From assembly GCA_016744855.1 (NCBI GenBank), contig JADGDO010000012.1, positions 1 through 64,000 of the forward strand: DNA of 64,000 nt, in the 5' to 3' direction. The stretch's first letter is position 1. Each line of letters opens with the position of its first letter. The translations under genes were made by a program, and so were the position numbers. Source of the DNA: Candidatus Fermentibacteraceae bacterium. Its GTDB lineage: Bacteria > Fermentibacterota > Fermentibacteria > Fermentibacterales > JCC-6. Of the stretch, positions 48,037 to 64,000 are shown piece after piece. The notes beneath the pieces were generated by a model, which saw only the letters and a list, made by a program, of their open reading frames with translations, ran no database searches and had not been told where the DNA came from.

Positions 48037-49050
48037 GTGGAAGGAAGATTTCTAGACAGGGTAGTCATTGCCGTTAAAGCCGGAAAAGGCGGAGATGGTT
48101 TAGTGGCTTTCCGAAGAGAGGCTTATGTGCCCAAGGGTGGTCCCAGTGGAGGAGACGGAGGCAGAGGGGGACATGTCTGGCTTGAAGTCAACCGGAAGCT
48201 TACAACCCTGGTTGATTTCACAAACGGATCTATCTTCCGGGCGGAAAAGGGTGTTCCGGGTGGAAAGAATGATATGACCGGAGCCAGAGGTAAAGATCTG
48301 GTCCTTTACATTCCTCCAGGTACAGAGGTTTACAATTTTGATACAAATGCTCTGCTCGCAGACATGACAGAACCCGGTCAGCGGATACTTATTGCCAGAG
48401 GTGGTGAGCATGGACTCGGAAATGCGAATTTTGCAACTCCCGAGAGACGAACCCCGAGAATTGCTACAAAAGGCAAACCGGGAGAAGAATTGAAGCTGCG
48501 GTTCGAACTCAAACTCATGGCTGATGCGGGTCTTGTAGGGTTTCCGAATGCCGGTAAATCTACTCTTGTTTCCAGAATAAGTGCAGCGAGACCGAAGGTC
48601 GCCGGCTACCCTTTCACGACTCTCAGCCCCTCCCTCGGTGTTGTAAAGTTCACTGATGGATTCAGTTACGTTGTAGCAGATCTCCCCGGTCTTATTGAAG
48701 GTGCCAGCAAAGGAGTCGGGCTTGGCCTGAGATTTCTAAGGCATGCAGAGCGCAACAGAATTCTTGTGTTTGTACTTTCTCCGGATATGGAGGTTACTCC
48801 AGAAGAGCAGTTGTCTACTTTGAGAAATGAATTACTGGAGTACGGTACAGATCTTAAAAGCATCAGTGCCATGGCAATTCTTTCCAAGTGTGACACTATT
48901 ACAGAAGTAGAGCAGGAAAAACTGCTTGCAACACTTCCGAAGGGCACAATGCCACTTAGTTCAGCAACGGGGAAGGGGGTTCAGGAATTTCTGAGAAGAC
49001 TCGGGAAACTGATCCTCAGAGAAAGACGGAGAGACTCAGATCCCTCTTGA
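48037..49050 (+). CDS. obg: Obg GTPase
   Basis: 337 residues, GTG start. The glycine-rich Obg fold is unmistakable (GKGGDGLVAFRREAYVPKGG, RGGEHGLGNANFAT). The GTPase domain has GFPNAGKSTL (G1), DLPGLIEGA (G3), and the G5-like SSATGKG. The G4 guanine-specificity motif, normally NKxD, reads SKCD here. There is no OCT extension, so it ends soon after the G domain. Involved in late 50S ribosome assembly and stress control. The end overlaps dprA (TTGA). Confidence 0.95.
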   Translation: MEGRFLDRVVIAVKAGKGGDGLVAFRREAYVPKGGPSGGDGGRGGHVWLEVNRKLTTLVDFTNGSIFRAEKGVPGGKNDMTGARGKDLVLYIPPGTEVYNFDTNALLADMTEPGQRILIARGGEHGLGNANFATPERRTPRIATKGKPGEELKLRFELKLMADAGLVGFPNAGKSTLVSRISAARPKVAGYPFTTLSPSLGVVKFTDGFSYVVADLPGLIEGASKGVGLGLRFLRHAERNRILVFVLSPDMEVTPEEQLSTLRNELLEYGTDLKSISAMAILSKCDTITEVEQEKLLATLPKGTMPLSSATGKGVQEFLRRLGKLILRERRRDSDPS

Positions 49051-50018
49051 AATTAGCACTCCTGGGGGCTCCCTCCAGGAGTGAACTCCGCAGACTTTTT
49101 TCTCTTGAAACCCCGGAAGCAATAGCAGATTTATCGCCCTTCCATCAGGTTGATTCAGCTTTTGCAACCTGTGAAAAGCAGGGAATTAAAGCTGTTTACT
49201 TCGGAGGAGAAGGTTATCCCGAACAGCTTATAAACATCCCTGATCCTCCAGCAATACTTTTCTACAAAGGTCTTTATTCCCCCGGTGAGTTACCGTTCAC
49301 AGTAGCGGTGATTGGTTCGAGGCGGTGTTCTCTCTACGGCAGAAAAACGGCAAGAAAACTTTCTATGGAGCTAAGTCGAGCCGGAGTATGTGTTGTCAGC
49401 GGCCTTGCGCGGGGAATAGATGGAGAGGCTCACAGAGGAGCTCTCGACGGTGGTTCTCCCACAGCAGCTGTGCTTGGTGGGGGTCTTGATATTATGTACC
49501 CACCAGAGCACAACTCTCTTGCCGAGCGCATCGCAGAAGGCGGAATACTCATATCAGAGTACCCTCCGGGGGTTAAACCTGCAAAATACACTTTCCCGGA
49601 ACGCAATCGAATAATCAGTGGTCTTTCAACTGCTGTCGTGGTTGTCGAGGCAGGAGAGAGAAGCGGAACGATGATAACAGTGGGAACTGCACTGGATCAG
49701 GGTAGAGATGTTTTTGCTGTTCCAGGCGATATCGACCGGTCCTCCTCGCGCGGTTCAAACAGGCTTTTGCGAGACGGAGCTGAACCGGTTCTTTCCCCAG
49801 AAGAGCTGATCGCAGAGTTTGGGCTCAATTCATACCCTCTCCCTGCTCCCAGCTCATCCGACCCGATACTTTCCTCCCTGATGAAAAAACAGTTAACCCC
49901 GGAACAACTTTCACTTGATCTTAAAGAAGATCCTTCTTTCATAAATACGAGGCTTCTTGAGCTGGAACTTCAGGGGCTTGTTATAAGAAGACCTGGAGGT
50001 ATTTACAGCCCTGTGTGA
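49047..50018 (+). CDS. dprA: DNA-processing protein DprA
   Basis: 323 residues, TTG start inside the obg stop. The Rossmann-like core has VAVIGSRRCSLYG, VVSGLARGIDGEAHRGAL, GGGLDIMYPPEH, FPERNRIISGLS and EAGERSGTMITV. A C-terminal winged-helix remnant ends the protein. It loads RecA on incoming ssDNA in transformation. Its position just before a type IV pilin-like operon is consistent with a competence link, but the promoter between them is separate. Confidence 0.94.
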   Translation: MKLALLGAPSRSELRRLFSLETPEAIADLSPFHQVDSAFATCEKQGIKAVYFGGEGYPEQLINIPDPPAILFYKGLYSPGELPFTVAVIGSRRCSLYGRKTARKLSMELSRAGVCVVSGLARGIDGEAHRGALDGGSPTAAVLGGGLDIMYPPEHNSLAERIAEGGILISEYPPGVKPAKYTFPERNRIISGLSTAVVVVEAGERSGTMITVGTALDQGRDVFAVPGDIDRSSSRGSNRLLRDGAEPVLSPEELIAEFGLNSYPLPAPSSSDPILSSLMKKQLTPEQLSLDLKEDPSFINTRLLELELQGLVIRRPGGIYSPV

Positions 50019-50103: not shown

Positions 50104-50119
50104 TGGCACCTTACTTGCA
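50104..50119 (+). promoter_or_regulatory. Sigma-54 (-24/-12) promoter of the pilin-like operon
   Basis: TGGCAC-N5-TTGCA. The GG (50105-50106) and GC (50117-50118) have 10 bases between them, the exact consensus spacing. Transcription should begin near 50130, 2-5 bases before the first start codon, so the mRNA would be essentially leaderless. Sigma-54 with a PilR-type activator drives pilin genes in other bacteria. The same region can also form a hairpin (50105-50112 with 50124-50131), but on this reading it would not be in the RNA. Confidence 0.6.
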
Positions 50120-50134
50120 TTAGAAGGTGTCATG

Positions 50135-51571
50135 ATGAAAAATAAAACTTTTAGAGATTCAGCAGAAAGCAGACGTGGAGCGGCATTAATGATTGCCCTT
50201 CTTGCTGCTGTTGTCGTCATGCTTGCTGCAACACTCTTAATCACACTCACCAGGAAACTGGTGGATGCTCATGTCAGCAGGCTCTTTGATGCTCAGATCT
50301 CACTTTCTGAGTCCAGTGCCGCTGACGGCCTGGCATTCCTGCTGGCAGAGAACGGACCATCTGCTTCCGGAGGACCGCTCAATTTTGAATTTGCCGGAGT
50401 CGTCACTGAATTCTCTCTTACAGAATCAGGTACAGCAGGAATCAGAACTGGTTTCTATTCCTTGCAGAATGCTCTGAGTGCTGTTTTTGTTCCTGCGGGA
50501 AGCAGGTTGATTTCTGCCCAAAGCATTAATGATTCATCTGCTTTAATAACCTTCTTCAGAGGAGACACCTTCCAGTCTACTGCGCAATTTGTTATTGAAA
50601 CGGATCTTCTTCCGGCTTCCGGTATCTCGTATACAACTTCTCTTGGGGAAGACGGAGCGATTATTGTTTTTGAGGGTAGTTCCAAGTCGCTTATATGTGT
50701 TGTTACATCGGCCGGCATTCAGTTATCTACCCCTGTTGCTTCACGGATACTCTCAACACGATCAATGCTATCTGCAGGAGAAGCTCCCGACGGAACACCT
50801 ATGCTAATTGTAACTAATGGTTCCAACCACGGGTTTGTGTACAACTGTGAAACAGGAAATCCTCAAAGCATTGACTCTCCATCAGGCACCTGCCCGGTCT
50901 TTCTTTCAAATGGTGAATTGTTTGGTTCTTTTTCAGAGACCTCCTCATCGTCCTTTGGTTCTGCGCAGGTTATTGATGTTTTCAACGGCGATTTCAACAA
51001 TGACGGCTGTGCAGATGTTGCTTTTGCGACGCGATTCTCTCTTACTGTTTACTCCGGTTCAACCGGGGAGCTGTTAAAGATTTCTCCCGGTGGTTCCCTT
51101 ACCTCCTGGGGAAGTGTCGAGGGAAGAACAGGTCTTTGCGGAATGTGGAACATGCCTTTTGCTGGCGATAAATGGTTCCGCCTGGGTTTTGAAGGGTTCA
51201 CAGAGTTCCATCCGGAGATGGTTTACGATCTCGGCTGGCAGGGGCGATTCCAGGGACGTGGCAATACCCTTACCGGTTTCATCGATGGTATGGCTGTTAT
51301 TGCTTCTTCTACAGGTTATGTACTCGAGCTGCTTGGCGGTGATGTTTTCACGGGAGACGCAGACGGAGGCGAAACCGACTTTTTCAGTGCAACAGAGAAC
51401 GGTGTAGAAGCGTGTTTTAATCCTGTTTATGGCGACGGTGTGGAACTGGCTTTCTCAACGGTAAACCATTACAGAGGAAATCGATACGCCGGGGAAACCT
51501 ATAAATTCTCCATATATGACTCCGGAAGCAGAACGAGGGTTTTTCACTCTATCGAGGGACTCGATTTATGA
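50135..51571 (+). CDS. GspK/PilX-like prepilin with FG-GAP-type beta domain
   Basis: 478 residues. ATG at 50132 or 50135; the second is chosen because AAGGTG at 50124-50129 is 5 bases away. After a short basic leader (SRRG) comes a single hydrophobic helix starting AALMIALLAAVVVMLA. It lacks the Glu5 of major pilins, as in GspK/PilX proteins. The rest is extracytoplasmic and beta-rich, and DVFNGDFNNDGCADVAFATR near residue 287 is an FG-GAP/VCBS-like calcium-binding string, suggesting a beta-propeller. It is the first gene behind the sigma-54 element and overlaps the next gene (ATGA). Confidence 0.8.
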   Translation: MKNKTFRDSAESRRGAALMIALLAAVVVMLAATLLITLTRKLVDAHVSRLFDAQISLSESSAADGLAFLLAENGPSASGGPLNFEFAGVVTEFSLTESGTAGIRTGFYSLQNALSAVFVPAGSRLISAQSINDSSALITFFRGDTFQSTAQFVIETDLLPASGISYTTSLGEDGAIIVFEGSSKSLICVVTSAGIQLSTPVASRILSTRSMLSAGEAPDGTPMLIVTNGSNHGFVYNCETGNPQSIDSPSGTCPVFLSNGELFGSFSETSSSSFGSAQVIDVFNGDFNNDGCADVAFATRFSLTVYSGSTGELLKISPGGSLTSWGSVEGRTGLCGMWNMPFAGDKWFRLGFEGFTEFHPEMVYDLGWQGRFQGRGNTLTGFIDGMAVIASSTGYVLELLGGDVFTGDADGGETDFFSATENGVEACFNPVYGDGVELAFSTVNHYRGNRYAGETYKFSIYDSGSRTRVFHSIEGLDL

Positions 51572-51942
51572 GAAATGGATTCACCCTTGTTGAATTGATA
51601 GTAGCCACACTCATTATTCTTGTTGTACTTACCGCTTTCTCTGTGGCAATTACTTCGTTTGTACGGGGTGGGAAAACTCTCGAGCTGCAGGATGGTGCTC
51701 TAACTCTGGCACGGGTAGAAATAGCAGATTTTGAGAGAAGAGAAAATATACCCGATGACGGGCGCACGCTAAGACCGGACACCCTATGGGGGCACCGCTA
51801 TACGGTGGAAACAACTGTACAGTCTCAGGGAAATAACACAGTCGACGTATTTGTAGCAGTCTCTTCAGGAGACTCTGTATCTATAGAATTATCAAGAAGA
51901 TTTTACACAGATATAAACACTAACAGACAGGAGCTCTTATGA
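51568..51942 (+). CDS. Type IV/II minor prepilin (GspH/I-like)
   Basis: 124 residues. MRNGFTLVELIVATLIILVV is a classic class III signal: cleavage after Gly, N-methylated Phe, Glu5 and a hydrophobic assembly helix. The globular part is small. Overlaps both neighbours with ATGA. It should be processed by a prepilin peptidase encoded elsewhere. Confidence 0.93.
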   Translation: MRNGFTLVELIVATLIILVVLTAFSVAITSFVRGGKTLELQDGALTLARVEIADFERRENIPDDGRTLRPDTLWGHRYTVETTVQSQGNNTVDVFVAVSSGDSVSIELSRRFYTDINTNRQELL

Positions 51943-52316
51943 ATAATCTGAGAATGCGCAGAGAGAAAGGAAGCGGATTCACTATCATCGAAGTTGTCAT
52001 TGCATCTATTATTCTGGCAATTGTTGTTACTGGAATTGCCGCTTTCTTCATGCACATTATTAAAATGTCTGATCAGATGGATGATCAGTCCAGAGCAATG
52101 GAGATTTGCAGAGAGGGTATTGAAACGCTTCGAACACTCGATGTAGTTGCAATGTCTGACGGCTGGCAGCCTGCTTCTACCATTGAGGGTTTTACAAGAG
52201 CTGTCTGGGTGGATACACCCTATTCTGAATACCCGGAAGCAAAACATGTTAGATGCAGAGTTATCTGGATGGGGGCAGCTGGAGCAGACAGCATAAGCCT
52301 CAGCACAATACTTTAG
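51939..52316 (+). CDS. Type IV/II minor prepilin (GspI/PilV-like)
   Basis: 125 residues. A basic leader followed by GFTIIEVVIASIILAIVVTG, with Glu5 present. The segment EICREGIETLRTLD in the first globular helix is as in PilV/GspI proteins. Followed after 13 bases by the giant pseudopilin. Confidence 0.92.
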   Translation: MNNLRMRREKGSGFTIIEVVIASIILAIVVTGIAAFFMHIIKMSDQMDDQSRAMEICREGIETLRTLDVVAMSDGWQPASTIEGFTRAVWVDTPYSEYPEAKHVRCRVIWMGAAGADSISLSTIL

Positions 52317-52329
52317 GGAGGTGGGTGAA

Positions 52330-55300
52330 ATGACAAATCTATTTTCAAGAAAACGCGCACCCGGTTCGAAATCGGGAATGACCCTTATCGAGCTGGTTGT
52401 TGTGATGGGAATTCTAGGAATACTTTTCACCGCTGTTTATATGTTCTTTGTAAAGGGAACTGAGCAGTTTCACTTCACGCGCCGCCAGAATCAGCTTGCC
52501 ACCAGTGGAAAACTCATTCTGGAGATTCTTTCCGACGAGATACTCTGGGCCGGCTATATGCCTGCGGGAGGCTGGACCGAAGAGGAATGGCGTCCTGTTG
52601 AGTTAGCTTCAACAGGTTCCTTCCATTTCTATGCTGACTATGACGAGAGTGAATCTCTCGATGACTCTGAGCACCGAAAAGTCTTCCGTGATGCCTTCGG
52701 TGTTGTCCATATAACAGATGACGACCACATGGACAGAATCGCTGGACGAGATGTTATTGATTTGCAGTTCAACTATCTGGACGAAGGCGGAAACTTTCTC
52801 GCAAAACCTCTCGATGAGGTAAGCAGGGAGGCTCTTCGTCATGTTGTTATAAAGATAACCCTTCAGGATACCTATATGGGGGATGTATACCAGACTGTAA
52901 TGCAGACAATGATTACACCGAGAAACCTTGGTGTTTTTCACAACTTTGACCCTCTCTTCTATCTCCCCGATGTTCCGGATGCAAAAATTGTTGTAAATAT
53001 CGATGGTGATTCACTTGCTCATACACCGACAAATCATCAAGAGGCTCTTCTTAGCATTCTTGACAGCTGGGGCTATACCCTTGTTGACCTGACTGATGAT
53101 GAGCTTGAATCATACGATTACGACAGTGCCGGAGTAGACATGGTGATTCTCAGGGATATGGGAATGGGATTGGATCATATAGGCATCGCCGCGACCCTGC
53201 AGGGGCTTCGCCTACCCATCATTGCCCTTGATCCAGAAGATGCTCAAAACGTATTTCTGATGGGAGATACGCCGGGAACCAGTGTCGTTACTGATTGCCC
53301 AATGAAATTTATTGATGTTCTAAATCCCCATCCAATCCATTATCTTCTCACAGATTCTTTTGAAGTTTATGATATCACTTATTCACCCACTTCCGACATT
53401 ACTACGCTTACAGATTTCACAGTAGGTACAGAACTTATCACAGGAGCCTTCTTCGGGGATGTGTACTCCGGTGTGTCTGTAATTCATGAGGATACACTCG
53501 AGCTGAGGCGAATTCATTACTGTGCACCCGAATTTGCCCACTACTCGCATGATGGAAAACGCTTCCTTTATAATGTAATCAGATGGCAACTTCCTACAGA
53601 AGTAATCCCTCCTCTAGGTGAAGAAATAGAGTTAGAGGGTTTCGAGGGAGACTCTCCGGGTGAAGTACCGGTTACTCTCTGGGAGGATGACCTCGAAGAC
53701 GGAGTACTGCTTCCGGATTCCATACCTATTTATACCGATTTCAGAGAACCTTCCAAGTCAATGCTGTGGGTCTTTTCATCCACCGGCTTGGGGGATATCA
53801 CCCGGCTTCCGGACACCACTCTCCAGATGCACAGAACCTCACTGGGAAGTTTTGACAGAAACATAGCAGCCAGCTCCGTCGACCTCTCTGCCTACAATGA
53901 GTTTTCTGATGAACTTTACATAAAGGTACAGAGCTGGAAGGGTGGCAGTGAAACCATAAATGCCGAAGACGGTGTTTTCCTGATTTCCACCGGAGGAGCA
54001 GTGGAAGAACTGGTCAATGAAGATTTTGAGACACTGGCTCTGGGTAATGGAGATGTTGAGTTTTGGGGTGACCTCTACGGACGGCACAGAATACATTCAC
54101 CGGAACCACCCTGGAATAACACTACTACTTTCGTTACTCTCGACAGCCGCGTAAACGGTAATTTGAGCAGGTCCCGTATGCTTATCGAGATTGACACGTC
54201 TACCCTTGCTGACGGTACTCCAATTACTGTGAGTTACAGAATGACTGATCATGCTGACAATACCCACAACTTCAACGCTTCAGATAATAGGGGAGACTAT
54301 GTTGGCTGGAGCCTCGGGAACGGGATAGATGATGTGGTTCTTGGCTACCAGAATCTGACACCCGGTTCCAAACCAAACGGAGTATGGGCAGATTACACAT
54401 ATGACTTCACACCCACGGGCACAATGCCCTCAACTATCTATGTTGTTTTCAGCCAGCGTGGTCGCCGAACTGCTTCAAGCGCAACTGGTACAGATGGAAT
54501 CAGCTTTGATGATATCTCAATAGTTGCAGACAAAACAAGTTTAGATCTTGACCGAGTGGGTGTTCCCCTTACAGGATCAAACTGGCAGAACATTGCCGTG
54601 GATCTGGATGACGCTGCTGTAACAAATGCTGTTCCTTTCTCTGCAGATTTTGGAATCGCACTCAGTCAGTACGGCATGGGCCCATGGGCAAACCACGGTA
54701 TGCACTGGAGGTATTTCGAGCTCGGATACATAGGAGAGAAATACACTCTTCCTCAGTGGTCACACGGACCATTTGTAATAGGTGATACCGATGACTGGCT
54801 GCTGGAGGATATCTCAGGCAACCACAAGTGGACACTCCACGCAAACAACCCCGCTACCTACAGCAGCTCAACAGACTGCTGGCTTGAAACTCCACAGTTT
54901 ATGATACCAGCCTCCACCCAGGATGCTATCTTCTCTTTCCATCACTCTCTTGATATAGAGAATAATAATGACTTCTGCTGGATAGAGATATCCACTAATG
55001 GCGGCACTAGCTGGAATCTTCTGGAATCAACTTCATACAACGGGTTCTATTCAGGAGGCGGTCACGATGCATACACTTCATCATTCGGTACTACAACCGT
55101 GGAGATTCCCCTTGATCTCTATGTAGGCCAGACTGTTCAGATAAGATTTGTCTTACACTCTGATTTGAACATCGTAGGATCGGGTTGGACACTCGACAAT
55201 TTTGAGGCTTCCGGTGTCGTTTCGGGAGTTGTTGTCGAGTCTATCGGATTCAAACCTGAAAACCCACTGGGTTCATGGTACTTCAATGATGTAGATGTTT

Positions 55301-56259
55301 ATCTCGGCAGCACAACCGATCTTTCCTTCTCAGGAGATGGTGAATGGGACAAGTCCTCTCTCACCCATTATGGAACCTATTCTGTCCCGTCTACAGGCAC
55401 GGAATGGGTAATCATCGACTTGAACGAAGACTTCATTCTTCCTTCGGCAGCCAATCTTGTTGTTAAGCTGGAGATGGAACAGACAGGAACCTCTCCCGGT
55501 TACAGCTGGATTGCCGCCAACCAGACAGATATGAGCAGGTGGGGAACTTCACCTTCCGGTGATCCATCCTTCTTGACTGTCGCTGACGTTAGGCCTGCCT
55601 TCATGATCAGAACTGCAAGCCACGGAGACCGGTTAGTTGATGCTGATTCAACCCAGACGAGTCTGGTAATGCCGCTTGCATTCTCCGCCCAGTGGGGAGA
55701 TTTTGAGGGGATATACCTGATATCGGAACTTGGATTTGGTGGAGAGACCTCATGGGTCAGCGGAGGCACAAAAAATGACTGGGAGATCGGTGCTCCTGTC
55801 TTTACACCTGATATAGATCCGGCTCTTGTGCCCAGTAATCAGAACAACATAGCCGGTAATGATCTTACAGATGATGGTCTCTATCAGCCTGTTGCCTGGG
55901 CATGGCTCCGGTCCGGCGCATTCGAGATGGCAGATGCAGCTGTATACGACACTGTTACAGTTTCTTTCGACCGGTGCCTGAGGCTTGCACTTAACGATTT
56001 CGCATATGTTCAGATGGCTTTTACCACGAGCGTTGACCCTCCTCTTACAGAAGGTGAATGGACTACCGTGAAAGAGTGCCACTACGATGACGTTAGCTGG
56101 CAAACTGAAATAATCCCGCTTACTTTCTACTTCAATGAGGCTCTTGGTGACGGTAAAACCCACTACTTCATTAGGTTTGTTCTTGACTCCGGAGTTTTCG
56201 CAGAATTCGGTGGCTGGAACATTGATAACGTCGGCTTCTACGGCCGCTTTGCGGAATAG
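52330..56259 (+). CDS. Giant PilW/GspJ-like pseudopilin with multiple extracellular modules
   Basis: 1309 residues from ATG 52330, preceded by GGAGGTGGG. N-terminus: leader RKRAPGSKSG, then MTLIELVVVMGILGILFTAV with Glu5. Residues 20-215 resemble a PilW/GspJ pilin head. Residues about 217-424 form an alpha/beta domain (AKIVVNIDGD, DMVILRDMGM, LPIIALDPED, FLYNVIRWQL) like class I glutamine-amidotransferase or ThuA folds. After it comes a long series of beta-sandwich modules: one at about 560-737 ending GTDGISFDDISIV, one at about 810-965 with IEISTNGGTSWNLL and GSGWTLDNFEASG, and a last one ending GGWNIDNVGFYG. These are hallmarks of MAM or choice-of-anchor J lectin-like domains. Normal pseudopilins are under 300 residues. 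Confidence 0.85.
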   Translation: MTNLFSRKRAPGSKSGMTLIELVVVMGILGILFTAVYMFFVKGTEQFHFTRRQNQLATSGKLILEILSDEILWAGYMPAGGWTEEEWRPVELASTGSFHFYADYDESESLDDSEHRKVFRDAFGVVHITDDDHMDRIAGRDVIDLQFNYLDEGGNFLAKPLDEVSREALRHVVIKITLQDTYMGDVYQTVMQTMITPRNLGVFHNFDPLFYLPDVPDAKIVVNIDGDSLAHTPTNHQEALLSILDSWGYTLVDLTDDELESYDYDSAGVDMVILRDMGMGLDHIGIAATLQGLRLPIIALDPEDAQNVFLMGDTPGTSVVTDCPMKFIDVLNPHPIHYLLTDSFEVYDITYSPTSDITTLTDFTVGTELITGAFFGDVYSGVSVIHEDTLELRRIHYCAPEFAHYSHDGKRFLYNVIRWQLPTEVIPPLGEEIELEGFEGDSPGEVPVTLWEDDLEDGVLLPDSIPIYTDFREPSKSMLWVFSSTGLGDITRLPDTTLQMHRTSLGSFDRNIAASSVDLSAYNEFSDELYIKVQSWKGGSETINAEDGVFLISTGGAVEELVNEDFETLALGNGDVEFWGDLYGRHRIHSPEPPWNNTTTFVTLDSRVNGNLSRSRMLIEIDTSTLADGTPITVSYRMTDHADNTHNFNASDNRGDYVGWSLGNGIDDVVLGYQNLTPGSKPNGVWADYTYDFTPTGTMPSTIYVVFSQRGRRTASSATGTDGISFDDISIVADKTSLDLDRVGVPLTGSNWQNIAVDLDDAAVTNAVPFSADFGIALSQYGMGPWANHGMHWRYFELGYIGEKYTLPQWSHGPFVIGDTDDWLLEDISGNHKWTLHANNPATYSSSTDCWLETPQFMIPASTQDAIFSFHHSLDIENNNDFCWIEISTNGGTSWNLLESTSYNGFYSGGGHDAYTSSFGTTTVEIPLDLYVGQTVQIRFVLHSDLNIVGSGWTLDNFEASGVVSGVVVESIGFKPENPLGSWYFNDVDVYLGSTTDLSFSGDGEWDKSSLTHYGTYSVPSTGTEWVIIDLNEDFILPSAANLVVKLEMEQTGTSPGYSWIAANQTDMSRWGTSPSGDPSFLTVADVRPAFMIRTASHGDRLVDADSTQTSLVMPLAFSAQWGDFEGIYLISELGFGGETSWVSGGTKNDWEIGAPVFTPDIDPALVPSNQNNIAGNDLTDDGLYQPVAWAWLRSGAFEMADAAVYDTVTVSFDRCLRLALNDFAYVQMAFTTSVDPPLTEGEWTTVKECHYDDVSWQTEIIPLTFYFNEALGDGKTHYFIRFVLDSGVFAEFGGWNIDNVGFYGRFAE

Positions 56260-56269
56260 GGGGATGACA

Positions 56270-57727
56270 ATGACAAACAGAACAACAAACAGAAAAGGTT
56301 CAGCCCTGGTTCTGGTGCTGGTGGCATCTCTCTTTCTGATCATTCTTACCGCCGGAGCATTCAGATATTTCCAGACTAATGTTAAATCACAGATTTGGAC
56401 CAGAGACAGAATACAGGCCAAGCTTTCGGCTGAAGCCGGTGCCAATCTGGCAACTCACATGCTTATCGCAGGAGCTTCGCTCCCAACCGATTTGAATCCG
56501 GCACCTATCCTCGGTACAGAGTTAAGTTTTTTTGATCTTCCAGGTGAATTGGGAAGCGTATTTGCCTGTGTCGACCCATCCGACAGCAATGAAGTGGTCA
56601 CTTCAGCCAATGCCTACATGATACGGTGTATCGCGAATGTTCCCGGTACTACTATTGAAACATTCGGCGTCAGGTCAATTGTAATGCCGGAGAATCTGGC
56701 AAGATTCTCCGTCTTCATGAACAACCCCAGCACTTCCGGATATTACGGGGATGGTTACAGATTCGATGGTCCCTTCTACGCTAACGGACCTGTCAGGGTG
56801 CAGAGTTCCAGTGCTACCCACGATGCTGACCCCTTCTTCTACAGTTTCAGACTGACCTCAGATTACTATCTGGCTTCCGGGTCTGTTCACCAGACAACGC
56901 CTTCGGATGGCGGTAATCTCGAAATGAGGCCTTTTGAACGGCTCACCATGGGTGCTCCCTATTTTGAACTGGGTATCGACCCCATTCCATTTGGTGAGGA
57001 TGAACTCGACTGGGAGGGAGTGAGATCAGCAGCTATGTCCGGTGGTCTAGTTCTTAACAACACTGATGTACCTGATTTTTCACGACTTGCCCTTAAAGGT
57101 GACACGCTTTTGGTAAAATCAACTATAACTGCAACAGTTGATAGCTATTACCTGGGAGGTATGGATAATCCTGTTGTCTGGATTGAGAACGAAGGACAGT
57201 GTATCTATCTCAGGGGTAGTCAGCTTCAGGGACTCAGTATGGCCCTAACCATTGGCTGCATGGGTGATGTGCGTATGTCCGGTAATCTTCATTACGAGAA
57301 CCCCGACCCTCAGGACCCCGATAACAATGATCTTCTTGGGATCATCACAGTACGTGGAAATATGATTATAGCCGAGGATCAGGGTGCACAGCTTGGTTGG
57401 TTGCCCGAATGCTTCCGAGTAAGAACAGACAACGGATTTGACTACTCTGCTGTTCTTGTTGCTCTCGAGGGCAATCTTCTTGCAGAGGATTGGACTGAAC
57501 CTGATCCGGGACCGGTAGAGTTCAGGATTATTGGTGGATACATGATACAGGAGGAGGGCTACACCAGCACAAACACCACCGGTTACGAGATAGGTGTTTA
57601 TTTCGATCCGAGACTGCTGTTTATGCACCCGCCTTTCTTCCCGACCACTGCAAACTGGAACACAACAATGTGGGCTGAGGATCCCGGAATGTCCACAGAT
57701 GATGTATACGCAATTGGACAATACTAG
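56270..57727 (+). CDS. GspK/PilX-like prepilin with DUF4900-like surface domain
   Basis: 485 residues from ATG 56270; AGGGGG ends 6 bases upstream, too close for ATG 56264. Leader NRKG then SALVLVLVASLFLIILTAG, no Glu5. Residues about 150-480 form a beta-rich domain with YRFDGPFYANGPVRV, a string that recalls the FxGPVHSNG of DUF4900 proteins (from memory). The end HPPFFPTTANWNTTMW is shared with the next gene product. It is probably a tip component. Confidence 0.78.
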   Translation: MTNRTTNRKGSALVLVLVASLFLIILTAGAFRYFQTNVKSQIWTRDRIQAKLSAEAGANLATHMLIAGASLPTDLNPAPILGTELSFFDLPGELGSVFACVDPSDSNEVVTSANAYMIRCIANVPGTTIETFGVRSIVMPENLARFSVFMNNPSTSGYYGDGYRFDGPFYANGPVRVQSSSATHDADPFFYSFRLTSDYYLASGSVHQTTPSDGGNLEMRPFERLTMGAPYFELGIDPIPFGEDELDWEGVRSAAMSGGLVLNNTDVPDFSRLALKGDTLLVKSTITATVDSYYLGGMDNPVVWIENEGQCIYLRGSQLQGLSMALTIGCMGDVRMSGNLHYENPDPQDPDNNDLLGIITVRGNMIIAEDQGAQLGWLPECFRVRTDNGFDYSAVLVALEGNLLAEDWTEPDPGPVEFRIIGGYMIQEEGYTSTNTTGYEIGVYFDPRLLFMHPPFFPTTANWNTTMWAEDPGMSTDDVYAIGQY

Positions 57728-57745
57728 AAACAGGGGAGATAGCCG

Positions 57746-59146
57746 GTGAAAAGTCAGCGTGGAAGTGCTCTCGTTATGGTTGTGGGTGTGGCTTCGGTTT
57801 TGTTCATACTTACCGGAGTTGTTTACACCTACTTCCAGATGAATGCTCGTACTACCAGGTTTCAGATGAACAGAATTCGTGCGGCAACAGCTGCCGAAGC
57901 TGGAACAGCTCTGGCTCTTCACCATCTTTCCTCTCTCGAAGCACTTCCCGCGAGTGGTCAGCCCTATCTGCTTCAGATGGAAGAAGACAGCTCCGGTTGG
58001 ATTGATCTCGCGGATTGTGGCAAGTTTTATGTTGTAATCGACCCGCTCGATGGGTTTGGAGGGCATACCAGCAATGGTGCTGTTGAGGTTCGCTCCAGAG
58101 GCCTTGCCGGAGATATTACAAGAGATGTTTACGTGAGGGCTGCTCCCGCATACCCATCCAGCTATGCTCTGCTCGTAGATGACGCTATTCCTGCAGGTTA
58201 TTTTATTGACGGCAGAATGGTGGACGGCTCTGTTCATTCCAACGGAGAAATAAATTTCAGCAGTTATTCACCCGACTCAACCGATGATCCGTATGTCTCC
58301 ATGGTTTCAACAACATCACAGGGTGGCTTCAGGTTTTCCGGCGGAGTCTCTTCCGACGTGCCCCATCCAGAGGGCAGCAGTGTCTGGGTAAGACCATACA
58401 GCAGACACCGGCAGGGCAGCCCCTACTGGCAGCCGAATTCACCTGAAATCGATTTTTCAAGGATGGCTGATCACTTCAGAGGAATTGTAAACGGTTCTGT
58501 TCAGAGTGATGCTGTTCGCATTAGTGCAGAAAGAGTTCTTATCGAAGGGCAGAGACTTCTTTACAAGGAGAGCGAGACCTCTGTTGAACAAGTTTTGTCT
58601 CTTGATCATGTTAATCTCGTAATTGTCCGAAATGGCTTTTCACCGGTAATGATAAAGACCGTTAGAAGACCTGATCATTCACTTACAATCATTGCTTCAA
58701 ACGATATGGAAATCGGAGGCGGGATTGACGGAGGAGCTACCGGCTCCGGAGGTCCTATGGGTCTGGTGACTCTCGGGAATTTCATCATTCCAGCAGATCC
58801 CGATGAAACCGGAGACGAAGACTGGTCCGGACGCTGGGAAATAGAAACAGACGGTGGATTCCTTATCAGAGCTTGTCTTGTTGCACCTTCTGGTACCTTT
58901 AAAGCTCAGACTCCTTACATACCTTCAGATCAGACCAGAGTTACTGTAACCGGAAGCCTTGTGGAGAGAACAATGGGTCGACTTTCTTCAGGGAACAGTG
59001 GCTATCAGCTTGGAAATACATGGGAACAGGGCCTCGGAGCCCTGCACCCTCCCTACTTTCCTCTGCTTGGCAGATGGAATGTTTACAGCTGGATAATCGA
59101 TCCTCCTGAACAGGAGGGTTTTGAAATAGAAGATGATGCAATATGA
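57746..59146 (+). CDS. GspK/PilX-like prepilin, paralogue of the preceding gene
   Basis: 466 residues, GTG start with GGGGAGA upstream. Leader SQRG then SALVMVVGVASVLFILTGVV. DGRMVDGSVHSNGEINFSS near residue 158 is the DUF4900-like signature, and the protein ends with HPPYFPLLGRWNVYSW, matching its neighbour. Despite this the two share little else, so the duplication is old. Lacks Glu5. Confidence 0.78.
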   Translation: MKSQRGSALVMVVGVASVLFILTGVVYTYFQMNARTTRFQMNRIRAATAAEAGTALALHHLSSLEALPASGQPYLLQMEEDSSGWIDLADCGKFYVVIDPLDGFGGHTSNGAVEVRSRGLAGDITRDVYVRAAPAYPSSYALLVDDAIPAGYFIDGRMVDGSVHSNGEINFSSYSPDSTDDPYVSMVSTTSQGGFRFSGGVSSDVPHPEGSSVWVRPYSRHRQGSPYWQPNSPEIDFSRMADHFRGIVNGSVQSDAVRISAERVLIEGQRLLYKESETSVEQVLSLDHVNLVIVRNGFSPVMIKTVRRPDHSLTIIASNDMEIGGGIDGGATGSGGPMGLVTLGNFIIPADPDETGDEDWSGRWEIETDGGFLIRACLVAPSGTFKAQTPYIPSDQTRVTVTGSLVERTMGRLSSGNSGYQLGNTWEQGLGALHPPYFPLLGRWNVYSWIIDPPEQEGFEIEDDAI

Positions 59147-59186
59147 TAACTGTAATAACAGTCAATTTGAAAGAGAGGAGACAATC

Positions 59187-62102
59187 ATGAAAACTTCTAA
59201 GGGTTTTACCCTTGTGGAGATAGTGATGGTCGTTGTTCTAATCGGAGTGATCTCTGCTGCTGCGTTTATTTTCCTTAGGGGAGGGCTCAGTGCCGCAGAT
59301 TCTGCGTCTGAACATTCCGTAGAGGCAAGCAGAGTGCAACTAGCTGCTTCAGAAATCGAATCACTTCTTGAAAATGCTGGATATCCAGGAGATCTGTTCA
59401 GAATTGATGAACCGGTACTGGAAGCTTCATCCGAGAGATTCAGTTTTTTCGCAAACACTACAAACCCGAGGGAATCGGGGCTTGAAGACGAGATTACGAT
59501 CGCTAACAATGATGGTTCCGTAACTGTTACTGACGGTTTCGGTACAAATTTGGTTTCCCCTCTTGGGAATGCTGAAATAGCTTTTGCATACACCAACTCT
59601 GCGGGAGAATCTATAGTAGATGCTGCTTCCGTAAGAAATGTTAGTTTTACAATAACGCTTGACTCCGGAATGGAGTACAGAGGCTATTCCTCTCCCTACA
59701 ACCTTGAGTTGGCTGGCCTCTCTCCTGAGGACTACCGCGAAATCTATGTTGCTATGGATGGGAACCCGAACCGCTGGACCGAATACAAATTCCAGGAAGA
59801 TTTCGAAACTCACCCCGGGTATGTTTTTGAGGATAATATGGAGGGTGATTTCGTATGGGAACCTGTTATACAGGAAGATTTTGAAAGCGCAGCCAGCTGG
59901 GCCAACAATTGGGATGGCTGGATCAGTGATCCCGGTTTTGGCAGGATACAGAGGCTGAACGACGCTTCCCTGGCCTACGAGGCAAACAACTGTCTTGTTC
60001 TTGACTGCTGGAAAACAGGTATCAGCACCAATATGGCCATCTGGACTGTTGATCTCAGCGATTATACAGATACAGACATGAGATTGAGATTTCACTGGCG
60101 TGAAGCTAATGATCAGCTGCATTATGAAGATGGTGTTTTCCTCCCGACCTTCACAGCGGGAGATACAACAGAGATTGATATTGAAGGATTTTCTGATTTC
60201 AGAAACGGCTTCAATAAAGGCTGGACCTACTGGACAAATGATTATGGCAGGATTGTTGTTACACAAGATTTCGCCACCGATGGGAATTACCTCAATATGG
60301 ATTCCCGAAGGAATGGTAGCGCCAATGAATGTCGTATAATGAACACATACGACCTTTCCGCCTATTCGGGAAGCAGCAATGTATGGCTCAGATACGACTT
60401 TGCCAGCCGCGACGATGAGAACAGCGCAGGCGATTTTATAGGAATCATGGGGGGATCTATCCAGGATGATCCACTCGCTCAGGTCGCCCTGACACCTGCT
60501 TCTTTCCCCAACGGCTCCTGGATAACAAGAACTGTTGATCTGGATGATCTGGCCCCTTCCGGATATGACTGGTCGGATTTCCGAATAGTCTTTGCACAGG
60601 AAGATAATGATCCTACTACTTCTGCTTCTGGTCTTGATGGAATCAGCATCGACAATGTAACAGTTATTGAAACTGTTGCAGATGCCTGGGATCTCTCGAA
60701 CAGAATGCTTCAAGCACCTTCTAATTTCCAGGCCTGGGAAGAGGGGCTCATAGATCTTACTGCAGAGGCCGCTTCAGCCGGTATTCCCTTCTCTAACGAC
60801 TTCAATATCGGATTCAGTGCAACAAACACCGATCCGTTCGATCTCGATGGCATCCTTTTTGATGCCATATATATTGATGCCAGGAACTTCGGTATGGCTG
60901 GATGGACTCACGGAGTCTGGCCCGGTTACACAGAAGACGAGTGGTTAGCTGTAGACAACAATGCAGATGCAAAAGAAGGAGACTGGTACTATTCTGTCGG
61001 TGGAACCACAAACTACAATACAACACCCACAAATGCCTGGCTTCAGAGCCCGGAGATAGATCTATCAACATTTTCAGATGGAGATAGGGTAGCCTTTGCT
61101 TTTTTCCACAAGTATGACTTCGGTAATGCCGGTGGAGGATGCAATATTATGATCAGTGACGATAATGGAGCCACATGGGATGTTATAGCTCCCTATTTCG
61201 GTTACTACACCAGTGCCGTAGCTTCTCTCGGCGGGCAGCCCGGCTGGACAGGACAGAACTATGGATGGGGTACAACCGGTCCTGATTCATACGATTTTGC
61301 CGTTTTTGATATAACTGAATATGCCGCAGCTAGTTCAGTAAGGATAAGGTTCAATTACGGAACATACGGAGAATCCCATGGTGGTTGGCAGGTAGATTAC
61401 TGCCGCAGCCGTGGTGGAGCCGACTGGCCTCAGGTAGATATGAATGGTGGAGGTTTCGACTGGTTTGCCTACTCCAATAGCGGAAATCCTGATCCTTCCT
61501 CAACCCCTAACGGCAGTTATTGGGCCGGTAATGATATGTCCACCAGTGGAGCTTGGGACCGCGAGTACGAAAACAACCAGAACAACTACCTTCTTTCTCC
61601 TCCGGTCTGTTTCGATAATGATACTGGTGCAGGTATCTATTCCTACCTCGAGTTTATTGCATCTCCCAGAACCCGATCGAGTGATTATGCGATCCTGGAA
61701 GTTGCAGCTTTCTCTCCAGTGGCACCGCCCAGTTGGCACACCATTTTTTCCGCTTCAGGAATTTCACCTTCATTCCAGCAGTTTAGGTATCGCATAGATT
61801 GGCTTCCACCTGATCTGGTCTGGACCGATAATAAAACTGTTGTGTTCAGGTGGCGCATGTATTCCAATGGATCCAGCACCGCCGGAGGATGGAATCTTGA
61901 CAATATCGAGTGTTTCACATCGGAGCAGGTTCTACCTGACATGTTCAATGGATCACCGGTCTTACTAGACTATGACGACACGGAAACTGACGATTTGCAT
62001 ATTGTTGATCCGCTGCTTGTCAGAGAATCATATACAACAAGAAGAGAGTCTGTAAGAGCACTCTATGCACCCGGACCACAAAGACTACTGGAGGATCGAT
62101 AG
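59187..62102 (+). CDS. Second giant pseudopilin (PilW/GspJ-like) with MAM/choice-of-anchor-type modules
   Basis: 971 residues from ATG 59187 with GAGAGGAG upstream; the earlier in-frame ATGs have no binding site. KGFTLVEIVMVVVLIGVISA is the prepilin motif with Glu5. The pilin head extends to about residue 195. Then a chain of beta-sandwich modules: DFE openings near residues 208 and 230, a unit at about 332-494 ending SGLDGISIDNVTVI (related to the module in the first giant pseudopilin), a unit with IMISDDNGATWDVI near residue 655 and RIRFNYGTYGESHGGWQVDY, and a last one ending STAGGWNLDNIECF. The final 40 residues are outside the last module. It stops directly before the lipoprotein gene. 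Confidence 0.85.
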   Translation: MKTSKGFTLVEIVMVVVLIGVISAAAFIFLRGGLSAADSASEHSVEASRVQLAASEIESLLENAGYPGDLFRIDEPVLEASSERFSFFANTTNPRESGLEDEITIANNDGSVTVTDGFGTNLVSPLGNAEIAFAYTNSAGESIVDAASVRNVSFTITLDSGMEYRGYSSPYNLELAGLSPEDYREIYVAMDGNPNRWTEYKFQEDFETHPGYVFEDNMEGDFVWEPVIQEDFESAASWANNWDGWISDPGFGRIQRLNDASLAYEANNCLVLDCWKTGISTNMAIWTVDLSDYTDTDMRLRFHWREANDQLHYEDGVFLPTFTAGDTTEIDIEGFSDFRNGFNKGWTYWTNDYGRIVVTQDFATDGNYLNMDSRRNGSANECRIMNTYDLSAYSGSSNVWLRYDFASRDDENSAGDFIGIMGGSIQDDPLAQVALTPASFPNGSWITRTVDLDDLAPSGYDWSDFRIVFAQEDNDPTTSASGLDGISIDNVTVIETVADAWDLSNRMLQAPSNFQAWEEGLIDLTAEAASAGIPFSNDFNIGFSATNTDPFDLDGILFDAIYIDARNFGMAGWTHGVWPGYTEDEWLAVDNNADAKEGDWYYSVGGTTNYNTTPTNAWLQSPEIDLSTFSDGDRVAFAFFHKYDFGNAGGGCNIMISDDNGATWDVIAPYFGYYTSAVASLGGQPGWTGQNYGWGTTGPDSYDFAVFDITEYAAASSVRIRFNYGTYGESHGGWQVDYCRSRGGADWPQVDMNGGGFDWFAYSNSGNPDPSSTPNGSYWAGNDMSTSGAWDREYENNQNNYLLSPPVCFDNDTGAGIYSYLEFIASPRTRSSDYAILEVAAFSPVAPPSWHTIFSASGISPSFQQFRYRIDWLPPDLVWTDNKTVVFRWRMYSNGSSTAGGWNLDNIECFTSEQVLPDMFNGSPVLLDYDDTETDDLHIVDPLLVRESYTTRRESVRALYAPGPQRLLEDR

Positions 62103-64000
62103 ATGAGCTGGACAAAAATACTGATTGCAGGAGTACTGATTCTTTTTGCTGTCGGTTGCGGTGAGGATTCAAGTGGACCTTCCGAGGAGCTCGCTGTTAC
62201 TGTCACTGCTCCACCTGCTGGTGGTGCCTCAGCAGTAGATACATATACTGTGACGTGGACATCATCCGCTACAAGCGGAACAGTATCTCTCTTTTACAAC
62301 ACGGTTGCAGGTCCTATAGGGCAACAGCAAATAGCCTCCGGTCTTTCGGCCAGCGGCTCACACTCCTGGGACCTTTCTGGAATTGCCGACGGTGAGTATT
62401 TTGTAAGAGCAATAATTACCAGTGGCGCTTCCTCTGGTTCAGACTGGTCGGATGGGTCTCTTACTGTGGATCATTCCAGTGGAGATCCTGCTATTACGGT
62501 GACAACACCACCTGAAACCGGTGCATCAGCAGATACATCTTTTGCTATAAACTGGGTTTCATCAGGTTATTCCAGTGGTATTGTTAATTTCTTTGTCGAC
62601 ACAGATACTGACCCAGCTTCCGGTCTTATTGAAATTGCAAAAAACCAGGATGACTCGGGTGAATATATCTGGAGCTGTGCTTCCTTCACCGAGGGGTACT
62701 ATTACATCTATGCGGTAATCACAGACAGTGTAAACACCAGCTCTGATTACAGCGCTGGAATACTGACTGTAGATCACGGTGGTCTGAACCCTGATTTTTA
62801 CATCACAAAACCGCCTGCTGCCGGTGCTGAAGCAGATAACGTCTATACAATTCAGTGGGAGAGCACAGCGCCACTGAATTCAACTGTTGATCTCTACTAC
62901 GATACAGATGAGGACCCATCATCAGGGCTTGTAGAGATAACAAAGGATATTTTTGACGATGGTTACTACTCCTGGAATTGTTCTTCTGCACCAGAGGGTG
63001 TTTACTATATCTACGGAGTTCTGGAAACTTCGACACCCAGTCGGCAGTCCGGCAGTGTTTTCTCTCTGGTTAATTCAGTGTCCAGGGGTACAATTGTAAC
63101 TGATTACAGTAATGGAACCCTCACAATTGCGCACACTGGTCAGTACTCCATTGAAGTAACAGAACCTCCTGCCTCGGGGGCTTCAGCGGATCAGAGTTTC
63201 CAGATTGAGTGGAATACAGATGCTCCTTCTTCAGAACCTCTGAGACTTTATTATGCTGCAGATACCACTGGAAGTGAACTCCTCGATTTAGCAACACTCG
63301 AACCTCCTGTCGGAACTGATTACAACTGGGATTGCAGCTCAATTCAAGATGGTAGTTGGTTTATTTACGCCGCTCTGGGTTCAAGAGGTATGGGTTCAGA
63401 CTGGAGTGCCGGCCCTGTAAACATTTCCCACGAAGAAGAATACAGTTTTACCATGACCACACCACCCGTTTCAGGTGCTACTGCGAATGAAGACTATCTT
63501 CTTCAATGGGAGACAGATGCCCCTCCTTCGGCCTATGTTTCTCTTTACTACGGTGTAACTTCAGAACCCGGTGGTACGGTGTACAGCATCGGAACTGGAA
63601 TCATGAACGGTGGTCAGTTTAACTGGCACTGTGAAGCAGTTGACGAGGGAGAGTACTTCGTTTACGGTGTCGTCAGTGATTCGCGTAACCCGCATGCTGA
63701 TGACAGAGGTGCCGGCAGTGACTGGAGTGACGGAACTCTGATTATCGATCATACGGGATATTCCATTAACATTACAGCTCCTTCGAGTCCGGGTGAACCT
63801 GCAGATGAGAGCTATCTTGTTGAGTGGCAGGCATCGGGAAATCCTGATTGCGCTATAGACCTTTACTACGATGATGATACTAATCCTTCAGATATGACTC
63901 TTATTGCAGAAGGATTGACTAACACCGGCTCACATGAATGGAATACACTTATCGCCGGTGAAGGTGAGTATTTCGTATATGGAATTATTTATGATCCAGC
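62103..64000 (+). CDS. Repeat-containing surface lipoprotein (3' end beyond the window)
   Basis: Open reading frame without a stop to the window edge (632 codons seen). ATG 62103 immediately follows the pseudopilin stop, with GGAGG upstream. Signal and lipobox LLFAVGC, Cys at residue 19 (MSWTKILIAG start). The mature protein is a tandem array of repeats of about 100 residues, each beginning with a TPP-x-x-GA-x-A segment, an IxW strand (YTVTWTS, FAINWVS, YTIQWES, FQIEWNT, YLLQWET, YLVEWQA), an LYY strand, then W-x-C or W-x-L, EGxYYIYGVI and a closing DWSDGTLxIDH. Six units are visible. This looks like Ig/fibronectin III-type rods anchored in the outer membrane. It is the last visible gene of the pilin-like operon. 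Confidence 0.85.
   Translation, partial: MSWTKILIAGVLILFAVGCGEDSSGPSEELAVTVTAPPAGGASAVDTYTVTWTSSATSGTVSLFYNTVAGPIGQQQIASGLSASGSHSWDLSGIADGEYFVRAIITSGASSGSDWSDGSLTVDHSSGDPAITVTTPPETGASADTSFAINWVSSGYSSGIVNFFVDTDTDPASGLIEIAKNQDDSGEYIWSCASFTEGYYYIYAVITDSVNTSSDYSAGILTVDHGGLNPDFYITKPPAAGAEADNVYTIQWESTAPLNSTVDLYYDTDEDPSSGLVEITKDIFDDGYYSWNCSSAPEGVYYIYGVLETSTPSRQSGSVFSLVNSVSRGTIVTDYSNGTLTIAHTGQYSIEVTEPPASGASADQSFQIEWNTDAPSSEPLRLYYAADTTGSELLDLATLEPPVGTDYNWDCSSIQDGSWFIYAALGSRGMGSDWSAGPVNISHEEEYSFTMTTPPVSGATANEDYLLQWETDAPPSAYVSLYYGVTSEPGGTVYSIGTGIMNGGQFNWHCEAVDEGEYFVYGVVSDSRNPHADDRGAGSDWSDGTLIIDHTGYSINITAPSSPGEPADESYLVEWQASGNPDCAIDLYYDDDTNPSDMTLIAEGLTNTGSHEWNTLIAGEGEYFVYGIIYDP

Follow-up and report, generated by a model that had tools for sequence, protein, structure and literature searches.

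The minor pilins of a type IV pilus determine what it adheres to, and several described systems resemble the operon studied here. As a class, modular pilins are well established: 264 architectures are described, and the most extreme multi-domain protein singled out has 860 residues and 12 repeats (PMC8179133). In Streptococcus sanguinis, PilB and PilC each carry bulky binding modules grafted onto a small pilin module, are thought to be located at the tip, and are encoded alongside a partner lacking Glu5 (PMC8179133, PMC9934059). ComZ of Thermus thermophilus is a DNA-binding, GspK-like pilin with a long helix, a small pilin sheet, and a large inserted beta-solenoid, and the tip has been argued to be the one place where it fits (PMC6561018). 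More generally, Glu5 is absent from K-type tip pilins, and it is argued that the tip alone can accommodate bulky modules (PMC9934059, PMC6561018, PMC7541494). Finally, the H-I-J-K sets, FimU-PilV-PilW-PilX with PilY1 and GspH-I-J-K, provide a common plan of minor subunits. Verru_Chthon cassettes also contain pilin-like proteins, including very large members; their models (TIGR02596 and TIGR02599) matched here at chance level (E 0.09 and 0.15), scoring 12.8 and 11.3 bits where the cut-offs are 70 and 256.5.

We analyzed a stretch of 64,000 nucleotides (the window) from the little-studied phylum Fermentibacterota (Candidatus Fermentibacteria, Hyd24-12), assigned to the genus Candidatus Sabulitectum by the contig names of its relatives. 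It carries seven prepilin-like genes, g1 to g7, and a lipoprotein gene, g8 (table). We propose, with a probability of about 0.7, that the products of this operon make up the complex of minor pilins that primes, and forms the tip of, the one retractile type IVa-type pilus in Candidatus Sabulitectum and in the Fermentibacterota at large. The initial annotation knew of no described system with such a composition; this was too strong, as modular pilins (PMC8179133, PMC9934059), ComZ (PMC6561018), and the H-I-J-K tip operon have all been described. The operon follows a known minor-pilin plan, and we see it as an enlargement of an existing theme, not as the start of a new system. Unusual here are the sizes of the subunits, the number of Glu5-less pilins, and their fixation across a phylum.

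Table. Features of the operon and its surroundings; positions are those of the window unless a locus is named.
Feature	Position	Strand	Remarks
dprA	49047..50018	+	113-bp gap to g1; identity read from sequence; a neighbor, membership in the system not implied
g1, Glu5-less PilX-like prepilin	50132..51571	+	479 aa; C-terminal half with a weak FG-GAP (propeller-type) signal
g2, small Glu5 minor pilin in the H/FimU/FimT position	51568..51942	+	124 aa; N_methyl above cut-off
g3, small Glu5 minor pilin, PilV/GspI-like	51939..52316	+	125 aa; N_methyl above cut-off
g4, giant modular PilW/GspJ-like pilin	52321..56259	+	1312 codons; alternative start ATG at 52330 gives 1309; N_methyl above cut-off
g4 pilin module	52321..52965	+	about residues 1-215; orthologue model, EpsI/EpsJ match
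g4 alpha/beta module, class I glutaminase-like fold	52972..53640	+	about residues 218-440; without conserved Cys
g4 beta-sandwich region, MAM-type jelly rolls	53641..56256	+	about residues 441-1312; shorter in Aegiribacteria
g5, Glu5-less PilX/GspK-like pilin	56264 (or 56270)..57727	+	full-length homologue of g6
g6, Glu5-less ComZ-like pilin	57746..59146	+	466 aa; long N-terminal helix; large beta-rich insertion, predicted to be a solenoid
g7, second giant modular pilin	59187..62102	+	971 aa; g4 paralogue without the alpha/beta module; N_methyl above cut-off
g8, lipoprotein with repeated Kre9/KNH Ig-like domains	62103..64000 in the window, end at contig position 64691	+	862 aa
REP-type transposase-like genes	L048:10378-11289; L049:11375-12286 and L051:4183-5094 (reversed loci)		identified by reading the sequence

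All seven prepilin ORFs were found where the initial annotation had placed them, with spacings from −4 (overlap) to 40 bp between g1 and g7, all on the same strand. A cut site and a hydrophobic helix are visible in 7/7 prepilins and Glu5 in 4/7. The proposed division into four class III signals with Glu5 (51568, 51939, 52330, 59187) and three without (50135, 56270, 57746) was borne out by the sequence and by the Pfam N_methyl model, which scored g2, g3, g4, and g7 above its cut-off; g1, g5, and g6 begin with a signal-like G/A-hydrophobic helix that lacks Glu5. Both giants, g4 and g7, are several times the usual size of a pilin, which is the single point in favor of their being misjoined frames or assembly errors. 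Orthologues of g4 of about 1300 aa (1302-1323 aa) are nevertheless single open frames in assemblies of several genera that come from separate studies, and intact g7 orthologues of 976-995 codons occur in several other genomes. In every segment of both genes dN was far below dS (dN/dS ≤0.25 where defined, which was in part of the segments only, dS being mostly saturated), as under purifying selection, and naked forms of g7 mark a clean module boundary. Because relatives of similar length occur in several independent assemblies, we consider the giants genuine, as first annotated, and the chance of a misjoin close to nil. In the Ca. Sabulitectum silens JCC-6 assembly (L104), several operon genes are broken into frame-shifted pieces, probably through sequencing errors.

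To describe the distribution of the operon, we surveyed related genomes. g6 was present in 39/42 Fermentibacterota genomes, including 24/24 of those of good quality, and in all nine genera. The order of the six-gene core, g1 to g6, was kept across the phylum, a conservation that the initial annotation had proposed to survey. A g6 profile compared with 84,980 genomes returned Fermentibacterota loci alone, in a search that used one peptide pattern and could have missed distant relatives.

The smaller subunits gave modest matches. At the profile level, the helix of g1 aligned with that of g6 (hhalign probability 74.5, E 2.7e-5). In the g1 family, 6/12 relatives matched FG-GAP_3 (best E 0.0027) and 4/12 matched FG-GAP (best E 6e-4). 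Compared with PDB sequences, g1 gave one weak match in its FG-GAP-like region, to a secreted esterase (E 0.0014), and it had no match in NCBIfam; the reading of a propeller in its C-terminal half therefore stays weak. Beyond N_methyl, g2 had weak and ambiguous matches to several minor-pilin models. g3 appears to be PilV-like, with a match to TIGR02523 (E 1.8e-6, 28.5 bits) that lies below the curated cut-off of 52.2.

For the giant pilin g4, the family model was built from an 853-aa Aegiribacteria orthologue rather than the window copy (pLDDT 67, pTM 0.35; its arrangement of domains is unreliable). The model has a 57-residue helix (14-70) and a sheet (85-191), and this head matched the EpsI/EpsJ pseudopilin complex 2ret (Foldseek probability 1.00, TM to target about 0.5). 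Judged by length, the matched chains (155-159 residues) would be EpsJ, and the model thus predicts a J/PilW-type pilin head. A second part of the model matched the GATase (class I glutaminase) domain of GMP synthetase (Foldseek E 2.8e-4, probability 1.00). No Cys is present among the conserved columns of the alignment of this domain, which is therefore probably a binding scaffold without the catalytic Cys. The large beta-sandwich domains that the initial annotation had expected to be exposed resemble MAM-type folds, both by Pfam and by fold comparison: the InhA-type MAM family was detected in window g4 (E 2.9e-5, a match below the curated cut-off or only moderately significant) and in 7/14 relatives (best E 4.8e-7), and the model matched the immune inhibitor A2 protease (Foldseek E 2.8e-4) and, more weakly, Reelin, gingipain adhesin, and MAM domains. 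The top fold match of g4, chain G of a levan-use complex (2.6e-6), was given no weight on account of a poor whole alignment (rmsd 20.7). In most genera g4 measures about 1300 aa. One genus has a g4 of 1145 aa, and in Candidatus Aegiribacteria, where most modules of residues 441-850 are absent, it has 785-866 aa.

The second giant, g7, aligned with g4 at E 1.2e-65 (hhalign). Four loci of family f2 carry naked g7 orthologues of 197-206 aa ending in ...SPPNLSL, which coincides with the end of the pilin module in the giants (...SPYNLEL). A giant g7 is also present within this family (G004), and modules must therefore have been lost or gained, as read from these sequences. In g8, PF10342 was matched at E 1.2e-18, with three stretches in the portion that lies inside the window, and the protein starts with a lipobox-like LFAVGC. 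Full-length g7 and full-length g8 were found together in 8/8 genomes versus 0/30 others (Fisher p 2e-8, a value that ignores shared ancestry); four genomes in which g7 was cut by a contig end and g8 was not found were left out of this count, and in some of the eight the genes are split over contig ends or lie in broken frames. This strict co-occurrence suggests that g7 and g8 are a functional pair, in keeping with the original inclusion of the repeat lipoprotein in the operon, and the two may be an optional addition to the system. In S. silens the pair is adjacent and lies apart from the operon core. In several Aegiribacteria, a REP-type transposase-like gene directly follows g6, in the place taken elsewhere by g7.

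Next, we examined the Glu5-less pilins g5 and g6, which are full-length homologues (hhalign over 460 columns, E 7.5e-75). Among 20 relatives of g5, PilX_N was detected in 4 (best E 5e-5) and GspK in 12 (best E 6.5e-5), and several members of the g6 family gave weak matches to both models. These matches, all below curated cut-offs or only moderately significant, are weak and suggest that g5 and g6 are K/PilX-type pilins. A profile search of PDB sequences with g5, g6, and the giants found no relative except the pilin helix of g4, and we therefore compared folds instead. The AF2 model of g6 (pLDDT 78.5, pTM 0.76) consists of a helix (2-62) and a small sheet (85-134), followed by a lengthy beta-rich insertion before the last strand (444-451). 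In a PDB-wide fold search with this model, three Thermus ComZ chains were the only matches at E <0.001 (8.9e-6, 3.4e-5, 3.2e-4); ComZ had been named as a lead before the fold of g6 was known. Global TM scores against ComZ were low (0.21-0.33), so the match rests on local structure, and sequence similarity between the two was undetectable in the profile search. By residue ranges rather than strand pairing, g6 is thus predicted to follow the ComZ plan of a GspK-like pilin with a beta insertion before the last strand. Together with the PilV match of g3 and the EpsI/EpsJ-like head of g4, these likenesses lend good support to the reading of the operon as a GspI-J-K or PilV-W-X tip made in the initial annotation. 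A secreted protein related to the inserted domain of g5 and g6 (L066:9892-11157; C96:116292-117557) recurs in roughly twelve of the phylum's genomes; it has an ordinary signal peptide, no pilin helix, and no Pfam match.

To identify the machine that these pilins might serve, we turned to the rest of the genome. The initial annotation had reported no ATPase, platform, secretin, or prepilin peptidase; this holds for the window and fails for the genome, whose other regions encode one full type IV pilus machine. We found four PilB-like and two PilT-like ATPases, one secretin, and one prepilin peptidase, and Pfam confirmed PilB, PilC, PilM, PilO, PilQ with an AMIN domain, and PilD. One of the PilT-like retraction ATPases shares the operon's contig, about 15 kb farther downstream (L008:17551-18657; C11:79551-80657). 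A 469-aa lipoprotein-like protein without a Pfam match lies between PilO and PilQ, the usual place of PilP (L077:7885-9294), and immediately upstream of pilB is an ORF of 1874 aa that begins with a signal peptide (L081:1433-7057). PilY1 (PF05567) gave no match in the genome, and the control was likewise silent. The remaining N_methyl prepilins are small and PilA-like, and the operon is the only cluster of modular prepilins found. With one machine, and small prepilins alone outside the operon, we therefore found no candidate other than this operon for the minor pilins of the sole pilus.

We considered what this set would do. One prepilin peptidase would cut all seven prepilins. On the basis of earlier work on tip complexes (PMC7541494, PMC9934059, PMC12040237), we infer that an H-I-J-K-type set composed of g2, g3, g4, and g5/g6, joined by the likewise Glu5-less g1, nucleates the filament at a PilB/PilC/PilM/PilO platform and then rides at its end as PilA is added below. 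The set would leave the cell through the one PilQ secretin and be pulled back by PilT. If it rides at the tip, the extra modules would therefore be displayed there as ligand-binding surfaces: ComZ-like beta-solenoids, MAM-type jelly rolls, the Cys-less glutaminase-like fold, and possibly a propeller. Before retraction these would most likely stick to particles, polymers, or other cells, and they may bind DNA as well. Adhesion is the likeliest use because the added modules are mostly of the MAM type. We also entertain, tentatively, a more specific possibility: a very large multi-ligand head, specific to the phylum and about 0.4 MDa if each subunit is present once, with three Glu5-less and two giant modular pilins, in which g7 and the surface lipoprotein g8 would form a receptor pair between tip and cell surface. 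Three Glu5-less pilins per operon do not fit a model with a single cap unless extra assumptions are made.

Other functions were weighed against the same observations. The likeness to ComZ, the dprA-like gene, and ComEC make DNA capture a serious rival: the two ComZ-like pilins would bind DNA at the tip of a competence pilus, which would retract and hand it over for uptake by ComEA, ComEC, and DprA. ComZ is the only confident match of the g6 model in the PDB, with g5 a full-length homologue, a dprA-like gene directly precedes g1 here and in several other genera, and the genome encodes ComEC and helix-hairpin-helix domains of the ComEA type. However, ComEC, HHH_3, and dprA occur widely, including in bacteria without known competence (10/14 control genomes were positive for ComEC), and in the Aegiribacteria loci read, the operon lies away from dprA. 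Moreover, with pI 4.3 and 4.8, g5 and g6 are acidic proteins, and giant MAM modules are not needed for DNA. On balance we regard competence as unlikely to be the main role.

The similarity to GspI, GspJ, and GspK could instead point to the tip of a type II secretion pseudopilus that recognizes secreted proteins. The sole secretin, however, has an AMIN domain and belongs to a PilM-PilO-PilQ operon, and the genome has two PilT-type ATPases. Almost all genomes of the phylum have exactly one secretin (of the two that deviate, one has a split gene and the other shows 7% contamination), and no separate type II secretion secretin was found in the phylum genomes searched, making this function improbable. 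An enzyme-display pilus, which the initial annotation had suggested, is more improbable still: the glutaminase-like fold of g4 speaks for it, but that domain has no conserved Cys and the remaining modules are of binding types, leaving the suggestion unsupported.

Returning to the priming and tip complex, we compared the operon with its closest counterparts. Like PilB and PilC of S. sanguinis, the giants join non-pilus domains to a small pilin module, as seen in the MAM and GATase-like folds of g4 and in the naked and giant forms of g7. They are larger, at 971 and 1312 residues against 860 in the most extreme case of the survey (PMC8179133), and bear MAM-type and glutaminase-like modules in place of vWA or lectin ones; in addition, a single operon, fixed across a phylum, holds several modular pilins. 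The predicted plan of g6, and by homology g5, resembles ComZ in its helix, small sheet, and large insertion, though here there are two copies per operon. Compared with the H-I-J-K sets, the same kinds of subunit occur in the same order (g2, g3, g4, g5/g6), with a K-type lacking Glu5, whereas here the PilW/GspJ-type subunit is a giant, two K-type pilins are present, and an extra Glu5-less subunit (g1) and a second giant (g7) are added.

A whole phylum thus has a fixed operon with a PilW-type subunit of up to ~1300 residues and ComZ-like pilins in duplicate, outside Thermus. This raises the questions of how a secretin passes so bulky a tip and how more than one Glu5-less pilin is placed. The strict linkage of g7 to g8 provides a testable partner, and the naked and giant forms of g7 offer a natural before-and-after of module grafting.
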